This document shows positions 10,962 to 17,697 of a stretch of DNA of 64,000 bases, in pieces. The stretch covers positions 1 to 64,000 of the forward strand of contig NZ_NWUX01000006.1 of assembly GCF_002374315.1 (NCBI RefSeq), given 5' to 3'. This DNA is from Vreelandella nigrificans. GTDB lineage: Bacteria > Pseudomonadota > Gammaproteobacteria > Pseudomonadales > Halomonadaceae. The notes beneath the pieces are model-generated. The model was not told where the DNA came from. It did not search any database and worked only from the letters and a program-made list of their open reading frames with translations. The translations under genes and the position numbers were made by a program. Numbering within the stretch: the stretch's first letter is position 1; each line of letters starts with the position of its first letter.

Positions 10962-11138
10962 ATGTACGTTTATCGCATCATGCTGTTTCTAGTATTTGGG
11001 GGCTACTTGCTCTCACCACTGCTAATGGATGGCTGGAGTGACCCCAGCGTTGCCTGGTATCGGCCGTTTGCTATCTGGGGTGGACTAATTGCGCTAACGC
11101 TATGGCTAGAGCAAAAGAGGAAGCTAGATGAGCGTTGA
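10962..11138 (+). CDS. cbrX: Small membrane protein upstream of CbrA (CbrX-like)
   Basis: A 58-residue protein with two predicted membrane segments (IMLFLVFGGYLLSPLL and the segment around WGGLIALTLWL), joined by a loop with WYRPF, and a charged C-terminus (EQKRKLDER). It starts one base after the gluQ stop and overlaps cbrA by 11 bases, so CbrA translation is probably coupled to it. A small gene named cbrX holds this position in Pseudomonas and is reported to couple to cbrA; the name is assigned from position and general character, not from an alignment. No catalytic motif is visible. Confidence 0.7.
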   Translation: MYVYRIMLFLVFGGYLLSPLLMDGWSDPSVAWYRPFAIWGGLIALTLWLEQKRKLDER

Positions 11139-14073
11139 GTTACTCGGTGTACTTCTCCTGGGCCTCGGCTACCTTGCGCTACTCTTTGGCTGCGGGACAG
11201 CCGTAGAGCGTGGCTGGGTGCCGGTGCGGGTGACACGCCACCCGGTTGTTTACACCTTGGCGTTAGGCGTATATGCCAGCGCCTGGGCGGTTTACGGCAG
11301 CGTTGAATTCGCCTCTAAATCTGGGTTTGGCTATCTAGCTTATTACCTTGGCGCCGCAGGCGCTTTTTTACTTGCTCCTGTACTACTGGTGCCCATTCAA
11401 CGCATCACCCGCACCTACCAGCTCTCCTCGCTAGCTGACTTATTTGCCTTTCGTTTCCGTTCGCGCTGGATAGGCACCATGGTCACGCTGCTTAGTCTTC
11501 TCGCAGTAATGCCGTTACTAGGCATTCAGGTGCAAACCCTGAGTGATGCAATACACCTACTGACCGGCAGTCGCTACAGTGCTGCCGTTGCACTGCTATT
11601 TTGTGCAGTAATTGCAGGCTGTGCAGTGCTGTTTGGCGCACGCTATAGCCATCGGCACCGACACGACACACTGCTGAGCGTGATTGCCTTTGAGTCAGTG
11701 ATCAAGCTCTTAGCCATGCTCGGGCTAGGTGCCATTGCACTATGGTGGGTGTTTGACGGGCCGCACGATTTACAACAGTGGCTAGAAGGCCCTGGTGCAG
11801 CAGCTCAGGCCGCAACATCACAGCTGGAACCACCGCAGTGGCGCACGCTGCTACTGCTGTTTTTTGCTGCTGCTTTTATGATGCCGCACTTATTCCAAAT
11901 CACCTTCGCCGAAAGCCTTTCCCGACACACTCTACTCCAGGCAAGCTGGTCGCTACCGCTGTTCCTACTGCTAATGGCGTTACCTGTGCCGCTTATTTGG
12001 TGGGCGGCACAGTCCACCAATGAGTCGGTGCCGATGGCTGCTTACGCTGCCTATGTAATGTCGGAGCACTGGTGGGTAGGGGCACTGGCATTCATTGGTG
12101 GTTTAGCGGCCGCTAGCGGCACCATGATGATGATCGCCCTGGCTCTTTCCGGGATGCTGCTGAACCACGTAGTATTAGTAGCACGCCCGCCGGAGGCACA
12201 AAGCGATTTATACGGCTGGCTACTGTGGCTACGCCGAGGCTTGGTAGTAGCAGTTATTTTGGGAGGCTGGCTATTTGCCGAAAGCGTTGGCCGCTACCAC
12301 TCACTAACCAACCTAGGGCTAGCTGCCTTTGTGGGCATGGCCCAGTGCCTACCTGGCATGCTGGCATTACTTTATTGGCCTGGCGCAAACCGTAAGGGCA
12401 TGGTGGCAGGGCTGATCGGTGGTACTACTATCTGGCTGTGGGGCCTGTGGTTGCCGCTCCTTTTCGACATATCACTGCCAACGCTTCCATTCACACCGTT
12501 GATGCCCGAGGGAGCACCAGACTGGTACAACGCCACACTAATTTCTCTCGCGATTAATATCCTACTGTTAATCGTGGTCTCGCTGTTTACCCGCACCTCA
12601 GAGGGAGAGCGCTCTGCAGCTGAAGCCTGCTCGGTAGACGCAGTGATCCGTTCCAAGCGCTTACCTCTAGAGGCGGCAACCGCTGCCGACTTTCCCACAC
12701 ACCTTGCCCAGGCGCTTGGTGATGAAGCCGCTGGCCGCGAAGTTGACCGCGCTTTGAAGGCACTCAATCTTACCCCCCAGGAGCGGCGCCCGTATGCGCT
12801 TCGCCGCCTGCGTGACCGTATTCAGGCCAACCTATCCGGCCTTATGGGTCCATCCGTGGCCAGGGATATTGTTGATCGTTATTTACCCTACCGCCACGAT
12901 GATGCCCCTATTACCGACGATATTCACTTTGTCGAAAGCCGGCTGGAGGCTTACCGTTCAAGGCTCACCGGGCTGGCCCGCGAGCTTGACGGCCTGCGCC
13001 GCCACCACCGCCAAACTCTGGCCAACTTACCTGTCGGGCTATGCGTACTAGGTGATGACGATGAACTGCTTATGTGGAACCAAGCACTCTCTCAGCTCTC
13101 AGGCATTAGCGGCGACAGCGTGATTGGCTCGCACCGGGATAGCTTGCCTGCTCCTTGGCCTGCTCTGCTAAGCAGTGTTCTTAAAGCTTCCCAGACACCG
13201 CTTTATAAGCAGTCAGTGTCGCTACACGGCAAAGACTACTTTCTGACACTGCACCAGGCCGTGCTAAGTGGTCACGACAGCCGAGGCGGCAGCGTAATTC
13301 TGGTGGAAGACCATACGGAAATGAAGTGGCTCGAAGATGAGTTAATCCACGCCGCCCGCCTTGCCTCTATTGGTCAACTTGCTGCTGGGGTTGCCCATGA
13401 AATTGGCAATCCTATTACCGGCATTTCATCACTGGCACAAAACCTACGCTATGACACCGACGATCCAGCCCTTCTAGAGACCGCTGATCAAATCCAGCAG
13501 CTTACCCAACGGGTCACTAAAATCGTTAACTCGCTAGTAGGCTTTGCTCACGGTGGGCGGCAGTCAACCCCACTACCCACAGCTCCTGCATCACTTAAGA
13601 CCATTAGCGAAGACGCGTTACACTTGATCCACTTAGCTCGCTCGGGAGAGGATGTTATCTTCACTAATGCCTGCCCCAGCGATATTGTGGTGCGTGGTGA
13701 TGACCAACGTTTAACCCAAGTCATGGTTAACTTATTGAGTAACGCACGGGATGCCTGCCAGTACCAAGGCAATATACGCATCGAAGCAGGCACAAAGGCG
13801 AGCCATGCATGGTGGCGGGTAAGCGATGATGGGCACGGCATTGCGCCTAGCGTTAAAGATCGTCTGTTCGAGCCATTTACTACCACCAAACCGGCGGGTG
13901 AGGGCACTGGGCTTGGGCTATCGCTGGCGTATCAAATTATTAACGAGCATCAAGGCAAAATAGAAGTGGCCTCGCCACCTCCCGGACAGCCTCGCGGCAC
14001 CGCCATTACTCTCTGGCTACCGCTCTACCAACAGGATGATCTTTCACCTTATGCCCAGGATACTGATTGTTGA
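11128..14073 (+). CDS. cbrA: Sensor histidine kinase CbrA with SLC5/SSF transporter domain
   Basis: Membrane sensor kinase of the CbrA/CbrB system, which governs carbon/nitrogen balance in Pseudomonas. The 981-residue protein has a sodium:solute symporter domain with about 13 hydrophobic segments (residues 1-490), a linker, a PAS-like domain (about 625-740), the phosphoacceptor box [14 protein letters not shown] with His757, and an ATPase domain with [23 protein letters not shown] and [10 protein letters not shown]. Transport of histidine by the SSF part is known for some Pseudomonas CbrA. The end overlaps the start of cbrB by about 23 bases. Length and order match Pseudomonas cbrA. Confidence 0.93.
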
Positions 14074-15448
14074 AGATGAAGCGATTATTCGCAGCGCCTT
14101 AAAACGCTTATTGGAGCGCCATGGCTATGCGGTGAGCGAAGCCGCAACGGCTGAAGAGGCTAGCGCTTTGCCACTCAGTGAGTTTGACCTCATCATCAGC
14201 GACCTGCGCCTACCGGGAGAGCCTGGCACAACACTGATCAGTGCTGCGGCGCCTGCTCCTGTGCTTATCATGACCAGCTACGCTAGCATGCGCTCTGCTG
14301 TTGACGCCCTCAAACAAGGGGCGGTTGATTATGTCGCAAAACCCTTTGATCACACGGAGCTTTTGGAAACCGTCGAGCGCATCCTACACAAACAGTCGAT
14401 GCAACAAGGTACTCCACCAGACATTACCGACGAAGGTGGGGGGCGTCAGACAATGATCGGCAACTGCGCCGCCATGCAGCAGGTCTACACTCGCATCAGA
14501 AAAACTGCACCTGCAGATGTTACCGTGCTAATCCAAGGGGAATCAGGTACCGGCAAAGAGCTCGTCGCCCGTGCTATTCACCAGCAAAGCAAGCGGGCCA
14601 AAGCGCCGCTAATCTGCGTTAACTGCGCGGCAATCCCAGAAACACTGATTGAATCAGAATTATTTGGTCATGAAAAAGGGGCCTTCACCGGCGCCAGTGC
14701 TGCCCGTACCGGTCTAGTGGAAGCTGCCGACGGCGGTACACTATTTTTAGATGAAATTGGTGAGCTGCCGCTGGACGCCCAAGCCCGCCTGCTGCGTGTA
14801 CTTCAAGAAGGTGAAATTCGTAAAATAGGCTCCGTCGAAACCCGTCACGTAGATGTGCGCCTCATCGCCGCCACCCATCGGGATTTACGCGCACTCTCAA
14901 AAAGCGGCGAGTTTCGTCTTGATCTTTATTACCGCCTAAACGTGATGCAGATAGAGCTACCTCCGCTGCGAGAGCGTGATGAAGACGTACTTAAAATTGC
15001 CGATATTCTGTTAGAAAAAGCGTGCAAGCGTCATGAGCGCCAGGGGCTCCGGCTATCACGTGCAGCCCGCCAAGATCTCCAGGACTATCCCTGGCCAGGA
15101 AATGTGAGAGAGCTGGAAAATGCTCTAGAGCGAGGCGTTATTCTAGCTGAAGGGCACCTGATCCACCCGGATGACCTGGGCCTGGGCCCGGTGGCTCACC
15201 GCCCGCCTCCACCCACGACCAGTTCACCAACAGCTAGCTCTACTAACGTGACCAATGAGGGCCCAATAGCAGCTGAAGAGGACGACCTTTCTTTGGAAGA
15301 TTACTTTCAACACTTTGTGCTAGAGCATCAGGATCAGATGAGTGAAACCGAGTTGGCTCAAAAACTTGGTATTAGCCGTAAGAACCTATGGGAACGCCGC
15401 CAGCGGCTAGGTATTCCACGCAAAAAAACAGCTCGAAGGCCCGGCTAG
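14051..15448 (+). CDS. cbrB: Sigma-54-dependent response regulator CbrB
   Basis: NtrC-type activator that opens sigma-54 promoters. The 465-residue protein has a receiver domain with phosphoacceptor Asp51 (IISDLRLPG), an AAA+ domain with Walker A GESGTGKE, the sigma-54 contact loop GAFTGA and Walker [11 protein letters not shown], a proline/threonine-rich linker, and a C-terminal Fis-type helix-turn-helix ([22 protein letters not shown]). An ATG at 14036 is an alternative start. In Pseudomonas the main CbrB target is the small RNA crcZ immediately downstream; a matching sigma-54 promoter is present here at 15667. Confidence 0.93.
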
Positions 15449-15528
15449 GTAATGCCACAAGGGCGGCCTCAAGGCCATCTTCTACTAACGTCTAATGTAC
15501 TGATTTTAATAAGAAACATTCAAAATTC

Positions 15529-15592
15529 GTTACCTCACTACTGTTACCTTCCCACACAATTAGAGCTAAAAATCGCTCAAAAGCGGGTAACA
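15529..15592 (+). promoter_or_regulatory. Candidate CbrB upstream activating sequence
   Basis: Three half-sites lie 100-165 bases upstream of the predicted crcZ start: CGTTAC (ending 15533), TGTTAC (15542-15547) and the inverted GTAACA (15587-15592). The Pseudomonas CbrB consensus, as I recall it, is TGTTAC with a spaced GTAACA, with several subsites before crcZ. The 39-base spacing between the second and third sites is wider than that consensus, so assignment as CbrB sites is an inference. Confidence 0.5.
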
Positions 15593-15666
15593 CTTTCTAC
15601 TGCCCTTGGTGACTTGGCATAGCTCAAAAACGCCAAGCTTATGAAATTCCTACCATATCCATTAGG

Positions 15667-15682
15667 TGGCACAGTGAGTGCA
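15667..15682 (+). promoter_or_regulatory. Sigma-54 promoter of the CrcZ-like RNA
   Basis: TGGCACAGTGAGTGCA has GG at 15668-15669 and GC at 15680-15681 with exactly ten bases between, the -24/-12 signature of sigma-54. The first half matches TGGCAC perfectly; the second is GTGCA against the consensus TTGCA. Transcription would start near 15692, where A-rich Hfq/Crc-type motifs begin. CbrB, encoded 220 bases upstream, is a sigma-54 activator. Confidence 0.75.
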
Positions 15683-15691
15683 ATATTACTG

Positions 15692-16178
15692 GGTAAGAAA
15701 AACAAACTGGGCAACGCGGTAAGTCGCCAACAAAAACAAAACATGACACCGCCCGACCTAAGCCATAACAAAAACAACAAGGCTAGGCAGAGATAACAGC
15801 ACTAACAAGAACAACAGGCTTGAGTCTCATTACTTGCACGCGCTATGCAGACGTTATGCAGACGTTATGCAACATAAGCGCAGCAAACAATAACAACAGC
15901 TAGCAAGAGCCCAAATGGACGCGACGTACAACAAGTTTTTTGCATACCAACAAAAATAATAGCAGAGCGTTTGTACACCCCGGAGCCAACAACAACTCGC
16001 CGGGTAGAAAAAGTTCGCGGTTGGATTATTGTTTTGAATACGAGGCGGTCGGAATCAGACTGGTTTCACGCCTACCGACTGCGGTGCGTATTCAGGGCGA
16101 TGTGCCATCATGAAGAAAAACAGCAGCATGGACGCTGATTGTCTACTTTATAGGGGAGGCTAACTTAGCCTCCCCTTT
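15692..16178 (+). ncRNA. crcZ: CrcZ-like decoy small RNA of catabolite repression
   Basis: No protein is encoded between cbrB and pcnB. The segment carries many AAnAAnAA motifs: 15695-15706, 15729-15743, 15767-15780, 15804-15816, 15886-15898, 15949-15960, 15988-15996 and 16113-16121. The one at 15988 sits in the loop of a CCCGG/CCGGG hairpin (15979-16004). A longer hairpin has outer arms GAATACG (16036-16042) and CGTATTC (16087-16093). In Pseudomonas this locus encodes CrcZ, about 400 bases, which sequesters Hfq/Crc through such motifs. Sigma-54 promoter, CbrB-like half-sites, terminator and synteny all agree. The predicted length is about 490 bases; both ends are inferred. Confidence 0.82.
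16153..16178 (+). terminator. Terminator of the CrcZ-like RNA
   Basis: GGGGAGGCTA (16153-16162) and TAGCCTCCCC (16166-16175) form a perfect ten-base-pair stem with a three-base loop, followed by TTT. It is placed between the A-rich RNA and the pcnB promoter region. Confidence 0.8.
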
Positions 16179-16223
16179 CCGCGTTTAGTGGCTTTTGCTT
16201 TTACTAAACCCACCATAGACGCT

Positions 16224-16251
16224 TTGCAAGTTTTAAGGGGTCGGCTACACT
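16224..16251 (+). promoter_or_regulatory. Possible sigma-70 promoter of pcnB
   Basis: TTGCAA (16224-16229) and TACACT (16246-16251) are separated by 16 bases and lie about 60 bases before the pcnB start. Each matches four of six consensus bases, so this is a weak call. Confidence 0.35.
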
Positions 16252-16311
16252 CAGCAGCTTGCCGCTAATTTATATGGTCACTTTTTATACCCTGCGAGTC
16301 GATATCGTCGC

Positions 16312-17697
16312 ATGTTCAAAGGATTTACCCGTTTCTTACATAACCCGGGAGAGCAATTGAAATCCCTGCTCAATTCCCCAGTGGAAGCCTCAGAGGCTCT
16401 CAGTCCACGTATTATTCCGCGCTCCGAGCACCCTGTTTCTCGTCAGCAAATCAGCGATGCCGCTCTAAAAGTTCTTTATCGCCTGAACAGTGCCGGATTT
16501 GGCGCGTTCTTGGTAGGTGGCTGTATTCGTGATGCACTGCTGGGAAAAATGCCTAAAGATTTCGACGTGGCGACAAACGCTACGCCGGAGCAAGTGCGCG
16601 ATTTATTTCGTAATTCACGCATGATTGGTCGGCGCTTTCGCATTGTGCACGTACGCTTTGGCCGCGAAGTGATTGAGGTCACTACTTTCCGTGGCAAGCC
16701 CCAAGACGAGCACGGCGATCATATCGCCCAGCAATCCGACGCGGGACTGCTTTTGCGTGACAACGTGTGGGGCAATATTGAAGAGGACGCCCTACGCCGC
16801 GACTTTACCGTCAATGCGCTGTACTACAACATTGCAGACTTCACCATTCACGACTTCGCGAATGGTGCGCGGGATATTAAGTCACGCACGCTACGTTTGA
16901 TTGGTGACCCAGCCACACGTTACCGAGAAGACCCAGTGCGTATGCTAAGGGCCGTGCGTTTCGCTGCCAAGCTAGACTTCACCATCGATCCGGCTACCGA
17001 AGCCCCGATGTTTGACCTCGCACCGCTGTTATTGCAGATTCCGCCAGCACGTCTATTTGATGAGGTGCTTAAGCTATTCATGTCGGGGCATGGCTTGATC
17101 ACTTTCCGCCTGCTCAGCCATTACAACCTATTTGGCATGCTTTTCCCCGAAGCGGAAGAAGCCATGGCAGACGCCGCCTGGGCCGAAGAGTTAATCGAGC
17201 TGGCACTGACGAATACCGATAAACGTATTGCTGAAGACCGCCCGGTTACCCCAGCTTTTTTGCTGGCTGCGTTTCTGTGGGCACCCGTAGCACACCGCCA
17301 GGCCGAGCTGGAGCGTGAAGGCATGCCCGCTATTCCTGCTCTGCAAACCGCTGCCCAGGAAGTAGTATCTCGTCAGCTTGAGCACACCTCGATCCCGAAG
17401 CGCTTCGGTATGCCCATGCGCGAAATCTGGGAACTGCAGACCCGCTTACCCATGCGCCGTGGCAAACGCGCTTTTCAGACCCGAGAGCACCCACGTTTCC
17501 GCGCCGCCTATGACTTGTTGCTACTGCGTGAGCAAGCCGGTGAACTACCGCGAGGCTTAGGGGATTGGTGGACAGCGTTTCAACAAGGCGACGAACACGA
17601 GCAGCGCCGCCTACTGCAAAAAGTCGGCAGCGACCCAGCGAGCCAAGGTGATCGGCGTCGCAAAAAACGCCGCAAACCGCGTAAAACAGATCCATGA
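16312..17697 (+). CDS. pcnB: Poly(A) polymerase I
   Basis: Adds 3' poly(A) tails to RNA and thereby promotes decay. The 461-residue protein has the class II nucleotidyltransferase signature FLVGGCIRDALLGKMPKDFDVATNA (residues about 63-87, catalytic DFD), RRDFTVNALYY near 161, the RYREDPVRMLRAVRFAAKL block near 203 and a basic C-terminus (DRRRKKRRKPRKTDP) typical of PcnB rather than CCA-adding enzymes. It overlaps folK by four bases. Order cbrB-crcZ-pcnB-folK is the Pseudomonas order. Confidence 0.95.
   Translation: MFKGFTRFLHNPGEQLKSLLNSPVEASEALSPRIIPRSEHPVSRQQISDAALKVLYRLNSAGFGAFLVGGCIRDALLGKMPKDFDVATNATPEQVRDLFRNSRMIGRRFRIVHVRFGREVIEVTTFRGKPQDEHGDHIAQQSDAGLLLRDNVWGNIEEDALRRDFTVNALYYNIADFTIHDFANGARDIKSRTLRLIGDPATRYREDPVRMLRAVRFAAKLDFTIDPATEAPMFDLAPLLLQIPPARLFDEVLKLFMSGHGLITFRLLSHYNLFGMLFPEAEEAMADAAWAEELIELALTNTDKRIAEDRPVTPAFLLAAFLWAPVAHRQAELEREGMPAIPALQTAAQEVVSRQLEHTSIPKRFGMPMREIWELQTRLPMRRGKRAFQTREHPRFRAAYDLLLLREQAGELPRGLGDWWTAFQQGDEHEQRRLLQKVGSDPASQGDRRRKKRRKPRKTDP

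Follow-up and report, generated by a model that had tools for sequence, protein, structure and literature searches.

The window, a 64,000-nucleotide stretch of Vreelandella nigrificans DNA, carries a cbrA-cbrB pair preceded by gluQRS and followed on the same strand by pcnB. The gap between cbrB and pcnB, put at roughly 860 bases by the first-pass annotation, measures 863 bases (15449-16311) and holds a putative regulatory RNA with its own promoter. The features are as follows.

11128..14073, + strand: cbrA, sensor kinase with a transporter-like N-terminal part (PDB 10ed, Pfam)
14036..15448, + strand: cbrB, sigma-54-dependent response regulator (Pfam Response_reg and Sigma54_activat)
15529..15533, + strand: CbrB-type half-site GTTAC(C), by sequence match
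15543..15547, + strand: CbrB-type half-site TGTTACC, at -124 from TGGCAC
15587..15591, + strand: CbrB-type half-site GTAACA, at -80 from TGGCAC
15634..15646, + strand: weak IHF-like site, 7 of 9 positions
15667..15682, + strand: sigma-54 promoter TGGCACAGTGAGTGCA, with TGGCAC at 15667
15692..16182, + strand: predicted decoy RNA of about 490 bases, its start estimated from promoter spacing and its end from the stem
15695..16120, + strand: array of eight A-rich AAnAAnAA clusters, from a motif scan and shuffles
16035..16095, + strand: family-specific 3′ stem domain with arms at 16035-16051 and 16076-16095, the outer arms nearly invariant
16153..16178, + strand: 10-bp stem resembling a terminator, its tail poor in T (three T)
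16312..17697, + strand: pcnB, poly(A) polymerase (TIGR01942, 535 bits, cut-off 306)

Residues 1-590 of CbrA match PDB 10ed (E 3e-179), described as CbrXA SLC5-STAC (PMC13022988), and Pfam finds HisKA and HATPase_c in the protein and no transporter domain at E ≤ 0.001. CbrB passes the cut-off of no NCBIfam model, so it is named from synteny and from relatives that stand before a CrcZ which Rfam recognises. The genome also encodes a Crc-like protein (L004:1492-2259), whose best solved matches are 2myi (E 4e-74), deposited as exodeoxyribonuclease III and which we take to be Pseudomonas Crc, and 4jg3 (E 1e-71), a catabolite repression control protein. The L004 protein also scores over the NCBIfam exodeoxyribonuclease III cut-offs. 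Relative to exonuclease III, QETK is changed to QNIK, MGDFN to CGTWH and SDHAP to SEFAP; we take these three to be the catalytic motifs of that enzyme. The product of L001 was set aside as a Crc candidate, since it is an exonuclease III, leaving L004. A Crc-like protein is present in all 151 family genomes (E ≤ 1e-45), and matches at that level occur in 225 of the 293 order genomes, where some may be nucleases. A motif search of the window and of the loci read turned up no Hfq.

Promoter, A-rich array and stems of the putative RNA

The half-sites announced by the first-pass annotation lie at 15529, 15543 and 15587, and they match the TGTTAC and GTAACA type mapped for CbrB in P. putida (PMC6296734). 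The GTAAC at 15587 is invariant across 46 aligned promoters. The GG-N10-GC element, likewise proposed earlier as a sigma-54 promoter at 15667-15682, is present with GG at 15668-15669 and GC at 15680-15681, and its sequence is conserved across relatives: columns G132, G133, C134 and A135 as well as G144 and C145 are invariant in the same 46 promoters. Within the family the half-sites lie near -124 and -80, and the first motif mostly begins 27-30 bases past the first base of the promoter. The IHF-like site was scored against what we take to be the IHF consensus; 44 of 102 relatives, versus 6% of shuffles, have a site that reaches at least 8 of 9 positions, which in the relatives mostly lies at -32/-33. 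When the genome was scanned with the promoter pattern, the cbrB-pcnB locus was the single match (a control pattern gave two), which argues against a second decoy copy in this genome. A second weak Rfam place, L007 (12.1 bits), shows no such promoter by eye in the 300 bases inspected.

Eight AAnAAnAA clusters follow the promoter, at 15695, 15729, 15767, 15804, 15886, 15949, 15988 and 16113, and one precedes it at 15508. Counted without overlap, the gap holds 9 motifs on the sense strand versus 1 on the antisense strand. Dinucleotide shuffles of the gap averaged about one motif and none of 60 reached 9, so the earlier count of at least eight clusters is borne out. Folding of the window RNA predicts that the adenines of the motifs are more often unpaired (0.93) than other adenines (0.57), although the last cluster, at 16113, is predicted unpaired at only 0.50. 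In 22 of 22 further loci, too, motif adenines are predicted to be more often unpaired than other adenines.

Downstream in the RNA lies a 3′ stem domain that is found in 87 of 89 family RNAs. It is missing from L181 and L182; the PcnB of L182 is identical to that of Carnimonas nigrificans. In the inner stem of this domain 181 of 204 cells are paired, compared with a shuffle mean of 166.8 and a maximum of 179. This count is inflated by related rows, it keeps at least one row with a wrong right arm (L174) and two with a shifted one (L104 and L105), and its register was chosen after a first register, one base off, had given 77 of 170 cells. Pseudomonadaceae-type RNAs have a different core stem, as judged by eye.

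The ten-base-pair stem at 16153-16178 is present, and similar stems occur in many relatives. Its identity as a terminator, which the first-pass annotation had asserted, fared less well: the tail has three T, and a terminator scan called none on the + strand and four on the other, so we regard the stem as a likely terminator. A coding reading of the RNA stretch was rejected, as no open reading frame reaches 80 aa. Nine frames of at least 25 aa touch the stretch, the longest being one of 67 aa on the other strand; on the + strand the maximum is 57 aa. A short ATG frame near the 3′ end of the RNA was also dismissed, since several relatives have ACG there by eye.

Distribution of the locus and distance from Rfam CrcZ

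CbrB was found in 245 of 293 genomes of the order (E ≤ 1e-110), representing 98 of 118 genera, and in 114 of 151 genomes of the family at E ≤ 1e-100. From these matches we read 110 loci (L008-L117, the window locus included). In 101 of the 110, pcnB lies 3′ of cbrB on the same strand, and half-sites, sigma-54 site and motifs occur together in 104, which cover 27 of the 28 families read. Sense motifs outnumber antisense motifs in 106 of 110 loci; among 103 rows with a strong promoter, in which the window is counted twice, 1533 motif starts fall after the promoter versus 81 before it. Related genomes are not independent, and these recurrence counts should be read with that in mind. In aligned cbrB-pcnB gaps the promoter, half-sites and A-rich motifs are conserved, so the poor conservation that would have counted against the initial reading was not seen and that reading survives the comparison.

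Six loci lack the full layout: L038 (at a contig end), L043, L044, L046, L047 and L106. In the genomes of L043 (G386) and L046 (G157) the array lies before pcnB instead (L186 and L184, respectively), so that cbrB is separate from the RNA and the array and half-sites stay with pcnB. In G329 (L047) motifs are found before pcnB (L185) and a clear promoter is absent. One family genome with CbrB, G024 (L106/L183), has no array either after cbrB or before pcnB. Two loci hint at tandem decoy genes: in L077, 14 motif starts precede the strongest promoter, and in L089 a second TGGCAC with a GTAAC before it was seen by eye inside the gap.

A PcnB scan with a query from one relative returned 80 named loci. 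All 44 with cbrB have the array, and carriers include Chromohalobacter, Litchfieldella, Billgrantia, Onishia, Aidingimonas, Franzmannia, Bisbaumannia, Marinobacter and Atopomonas. The array occurs in 6 of the 36 named loci without cbrB, all six from Halomonadaceae. The other 30 come mostly from Enterobacterales, Vibrionales, Aeromonadales and unplaced bins; their motif counts are 0-3, and none has a promoter that fits. Outside the family, five order genomes without CbrB (L187-L191) show 0-3 motifs ahead of pcnB, so the RNA is missing there along with CbrB; in a sixth, G202, pcnB was not found.

When the search was extended to the class, 29 of 321 genomes had CbrB-like proteins, and 26 of the 29 lie outside the order. 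We read 20 of these 26 loci over up to 1200 bases, and none has a motif cluster (0-1 motifs each) or pcnB after the gene; they were thus rejected as carriers, and the tie between CbrB and the RNA seems to belong to the order. At one outside-order locus (L341:210-1500) the CbrB-like gene is followed by a GTTAC-rich stretch with no decoy array, and then, by eye, by genes for a short membrane protein-like product and a sodium symporter-like product.

According to two papers, CbrAB and the gene order cbrA-cbrB-crcZ are confined to Pseudomonadaceae (PMC8871633, PMC6296734). With the full layout in 27 of 28 order families, the range is wider than printed, and wider than the extension to Halomonadaceae that the first-pass annotation had supposed. 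We found no paper on CrcZ in Marinobacter or Alcanivorax and know of no report of the locus in Halomonadaceae, in a literature search that left most subscription journals outside its reach. In passages of a sea-water study, cbr transcripts are described and a decoy RNA does not appear (PMC5073097).

The Rfam CrcZ covariance model (RF01675), named earlier as a check, does not recognise the window RNA: the score is 17 bits (E 0.42), below the cut-off of 95. In a search of its own genome the window locus is the better of two matches (E 0.04); sub-threshold CrcZ matches at E ≤ 10 also turned up in 9 of 14 control genomes. Given this score, we do not file the RNA as a member of the Rfam family, and our claim is that it works like CrcZ. 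When 20 loci were searched together, four f21 loci with the same layout scored 307-320 bits, on which basis we take f21 to be Pseudomonadaceae. Scores in other families were 102.5 bits (f2), 66.9 (f35), 39.3 (f44), 36.0 (f20), 30.2 (f40), 26.9 (f14), 24.9 (f29), 23.2 (f37) and 21.4 (f4). In this joint search no match at E ≤ 0.5 was obtained for L008 (the window locus), L041, L044, L048, L053, L065 or L068. The stepwise drop across families fits the divergence of one RNA.

Loci without CbrB and genomes without Crc

CbrB fell below threshold in 36 sampled family genomes from seven genera. A 37th, G105 (L192), was set apart: no CbrB was found in it, its genus otherwise has CbrB, and its promoter is weak. 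A sigma-54 site and a motif array before pcnB are kept in 34 of the 36 (L168-L182 and L193-L212, with the L181 promoter picked by eye and with L203 and L213 as the exceptions). By eye, the gene before the array is gluQRS-like in 14 of the first 15 (L181 differs), and cbrAB therefore looks to have been cut out. The 3′ stem domain is common to 31 of 33 CbrB-less RNAs, which identifies them as the same RNA. Identical PcnB proteins place four of the genera as Phytohalomonas, Larsenimonas, Halotalea and Carnimonas.

The promoters of these loci differ from the others in their upstream sites. At least two GTTAC/GTAAC copies are left in 2 of 33 CbrB-less loci, versus all 56 family loci with CbrB and all 45 loci from other families, meaning that the CbrB half-site pair is lost in 31 of 33 testable CbrB-less loci. 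In most CbrB-less promoters TGCACCA, or a sequence close to it, lies near -135 or -144; a second dyad near -103 or -112 is present in many. Judged by what we take to be the NtrC consensus, these dyads look like NtrC sites. The best dyad pair of the glnK-amtB promoter also sits at -135/-103 in two g4 genomes and in G012 (Franzmannia), as in the CbrB-less RNA promoters; in the window's own genome it sits at -145/-113.

For a quantitative comparison we used a matrix built from 17 sites hand-picked, with the assumed consensus as a guide, from glnK-amtB sigma-54 promoters of the family (18 amtB loci were searched and weak sites were left out). The counts exclude L203 and L213 (no promoter over threshold, and stops in the L213 pcnB), L199 (contig end) and L192/G105. 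NtrC-type sites over the 95% shuffle level were found in 31 of 33 CbrB-less RNA promoters, 16 of the 31 CbrB-bearing family loci that do not belong to g1, none of 25 loci of g1, the window's genus, and 1 of 45 loci from other families. At 8 bits, a level of our own choice, the matrix gave 33 of 33 CbrB-less loci (all seven genera), 17 of 31 and, for g1, 0 of 25. A weaker test that asked for a 32-base pair gave 20 of 33, 9 of 31, 0 of 25 and 1 of 45 for the same four classes. With 16-17 of 31 CbrB-bearing loci having NtrC-type sites, many such genera have both kinds, interleaved, as does Chromohalobacter; g3, g5 and g22 have CbrB sites only.

Mapped on a PcnB tree with 111 rows, the CbrB-less label requires two changes, a number that the well-supported branches also impose. 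The tree is a quick one with some long branches, and L192, where no CbrB was found, is labelled as having CbrB. These sequences are most simply explained by a gain of NtrC-type sites followed by two losses of CbrAB. A single loss followed by a regain is possible, and it is also possible that another activator with an NtrC-like site drives the CbrB-less promoters. We consider a hand-over from CbrB to NtrC in these relatives probable. At hut promoters, CbrB, NtrC and HutC have binding sequences in common (PMC8871633), and the kinship of CbrB and NtrC and these shared sequences may matter for such a hand-over.

A second group of carriers, in family f29, appears to lack Crc. Ten f29 genomes have only exonuclease-level Crc matches (E 2e-9 to 1e-18, or none at 1e-6), and in the eleventh, G178, Crc is present. 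The best Crc match of G215 is 61% identical to the exonuclease III of the window's own genome and keeps QETK. The RNA is found in 8 of the 9 Crc-less f29 genomes read (L070, L330-L335 and L337); in the ninth, L336, it was not found within 1200 bases. The decoy in such genomes would act on Hfq alone.

Both sets of genomes are offered as new leads. We lean slightly towards a reading in which the decoy RNA changed its master and, in part of f29, outlived Crc, with Hfq then its core target. NtrC-type sites would have been added and CbrAB lost, probably twice, so that the relief of carbon preference came to depend on nitrogen; the window's genus, in which CbrB sites are kept and NtrC-type sites are absent, would represent the other outcome. 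The CbrB-less genera offer a natural test for which sites serve CbrB and, if this reading is true, a concrete case of a regulatory RNA passed from a carbon to a nitrogen regulator, and the Crc-less genomes pose the question of what Crc contributes beside Hfq.

A candidate CrcZ-type decoy and its alternatives

Placement between cbrB and pcnB, a sigma-54 promoter, CbrB subsites, motifs predicted to be unpaired and a Crc-like gene fit the identity proposed by the first-pass annotation, and we conclude that 15692-16182 very probably encodes a CrcZ-type Hfq(-Crc) decoy RNA driven by CbrB and sigma-54. This conclusion draws on DNA layout, order-wide conservation, predicted motif exposure and the CbrA, CbrB and Crc-like genes, and it carries over from the Pseudomonas system the transcript itself, its activation by CbrB and sigma-54, the binding of Hfq and Crc, and the catabolic effect. 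On this model, when good carbon sources are scarce phosphorylated CbrB would bind the GTTACC/GTAACA half-sites and turn on the sigma-54 promoter. The eight single-stranded A-rich segments would bind the distal face of Hfq, and the RNA would take up Hfq, plus Crc where present, releasing catabolic mRNAs from translational repression. In Azotobacter a cbrB-crcZ co-transcript is described (PMC6292655), and by analogy cbrB and the RNA may be co-transcribed in the window's organism too.

Instead of a free decoy, the A-rich stretch might be a long, regulated pcnB leader with a cis effect on poly(A) polymerase. The array does remain before pcnB in 34 of the 36 CbrB-less family genomes and in L184 and L186, where cbrB is elsewhere, and no good terminator was called on the + strand. 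However, the arrays of L069, L074, L082 and L083 follow cbrB with no pcnB in the stretch read, the stem closes the RNA about 130 bases 5′ of pcnB, and the Pseudomonas RNA from the same place acts in trans (PMC8871633). We consider such a leader unlikely. A small RNA that acts by base pairing, with the motifs holding Hfq and the 3′ stem domain pairing with targets or binding other partners, would explain why that domain, needless for a plain decoy, is the best conserved part of the RNA in the family (87 of 89). The number and exposure of the motifs (a mean of 8.4 per family gap) nonetheless exceed what one Hfq site would call for, and two genera keep the array without the domain, which makes this alternative quite improbable. 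That the gap is A-rich by chance and its motifs are look-alikes, as the sub-threshold Rfam score might suggest, is contradicted by strand bias, shuffles, fixed spacing and recurrence, and we give it next to no weight.

As a CrcZ-type decoy, the window RNA is known in kind, new in range and outside the Rfam model. It is like CrcZ of Pseudomonas and Azotobacter in its cbrB-pcnB placement, its sigma-54 promoter, its TGTTAC/GTAAC subsites at equal distances and its unpaired A-rich array. It differs in that its sequence is too distant for the Rfam model, its predicted length is about 490 bases versus a 398-position model, gaps in the family hold a mean of 8.4 motifs (57 loci) versus 6.4 (5 loci), and the family RNA has a different 3′ stem domain. 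If the wider distribution is true, Hfq-decoy control of carbon preference is an old trait within a large group, whose halophilic and marine members include Halomonadaceae and Marinobacter.

RsmY and RsmZ, decoys of CsrA/RsmA, follow the same logic of repeated motifs that titrate an RNA-binding repressor, and differ from the CrcZ type in protein, motif and regulator. CrcY and CrcX are CbrB-driven Pseudomonas decoys of the same kind (PMC8871633) but, unlike the window RNA, they do not adjoin cbrB. A further Rfam family, the Pseudomonas sRNA P36, scored over its cut-off at L059:2086-2148 and L060:227-287. Both matches fall inside the CbrB-site region before crcZ, and P36 may therefore be part of the crcZ control region.
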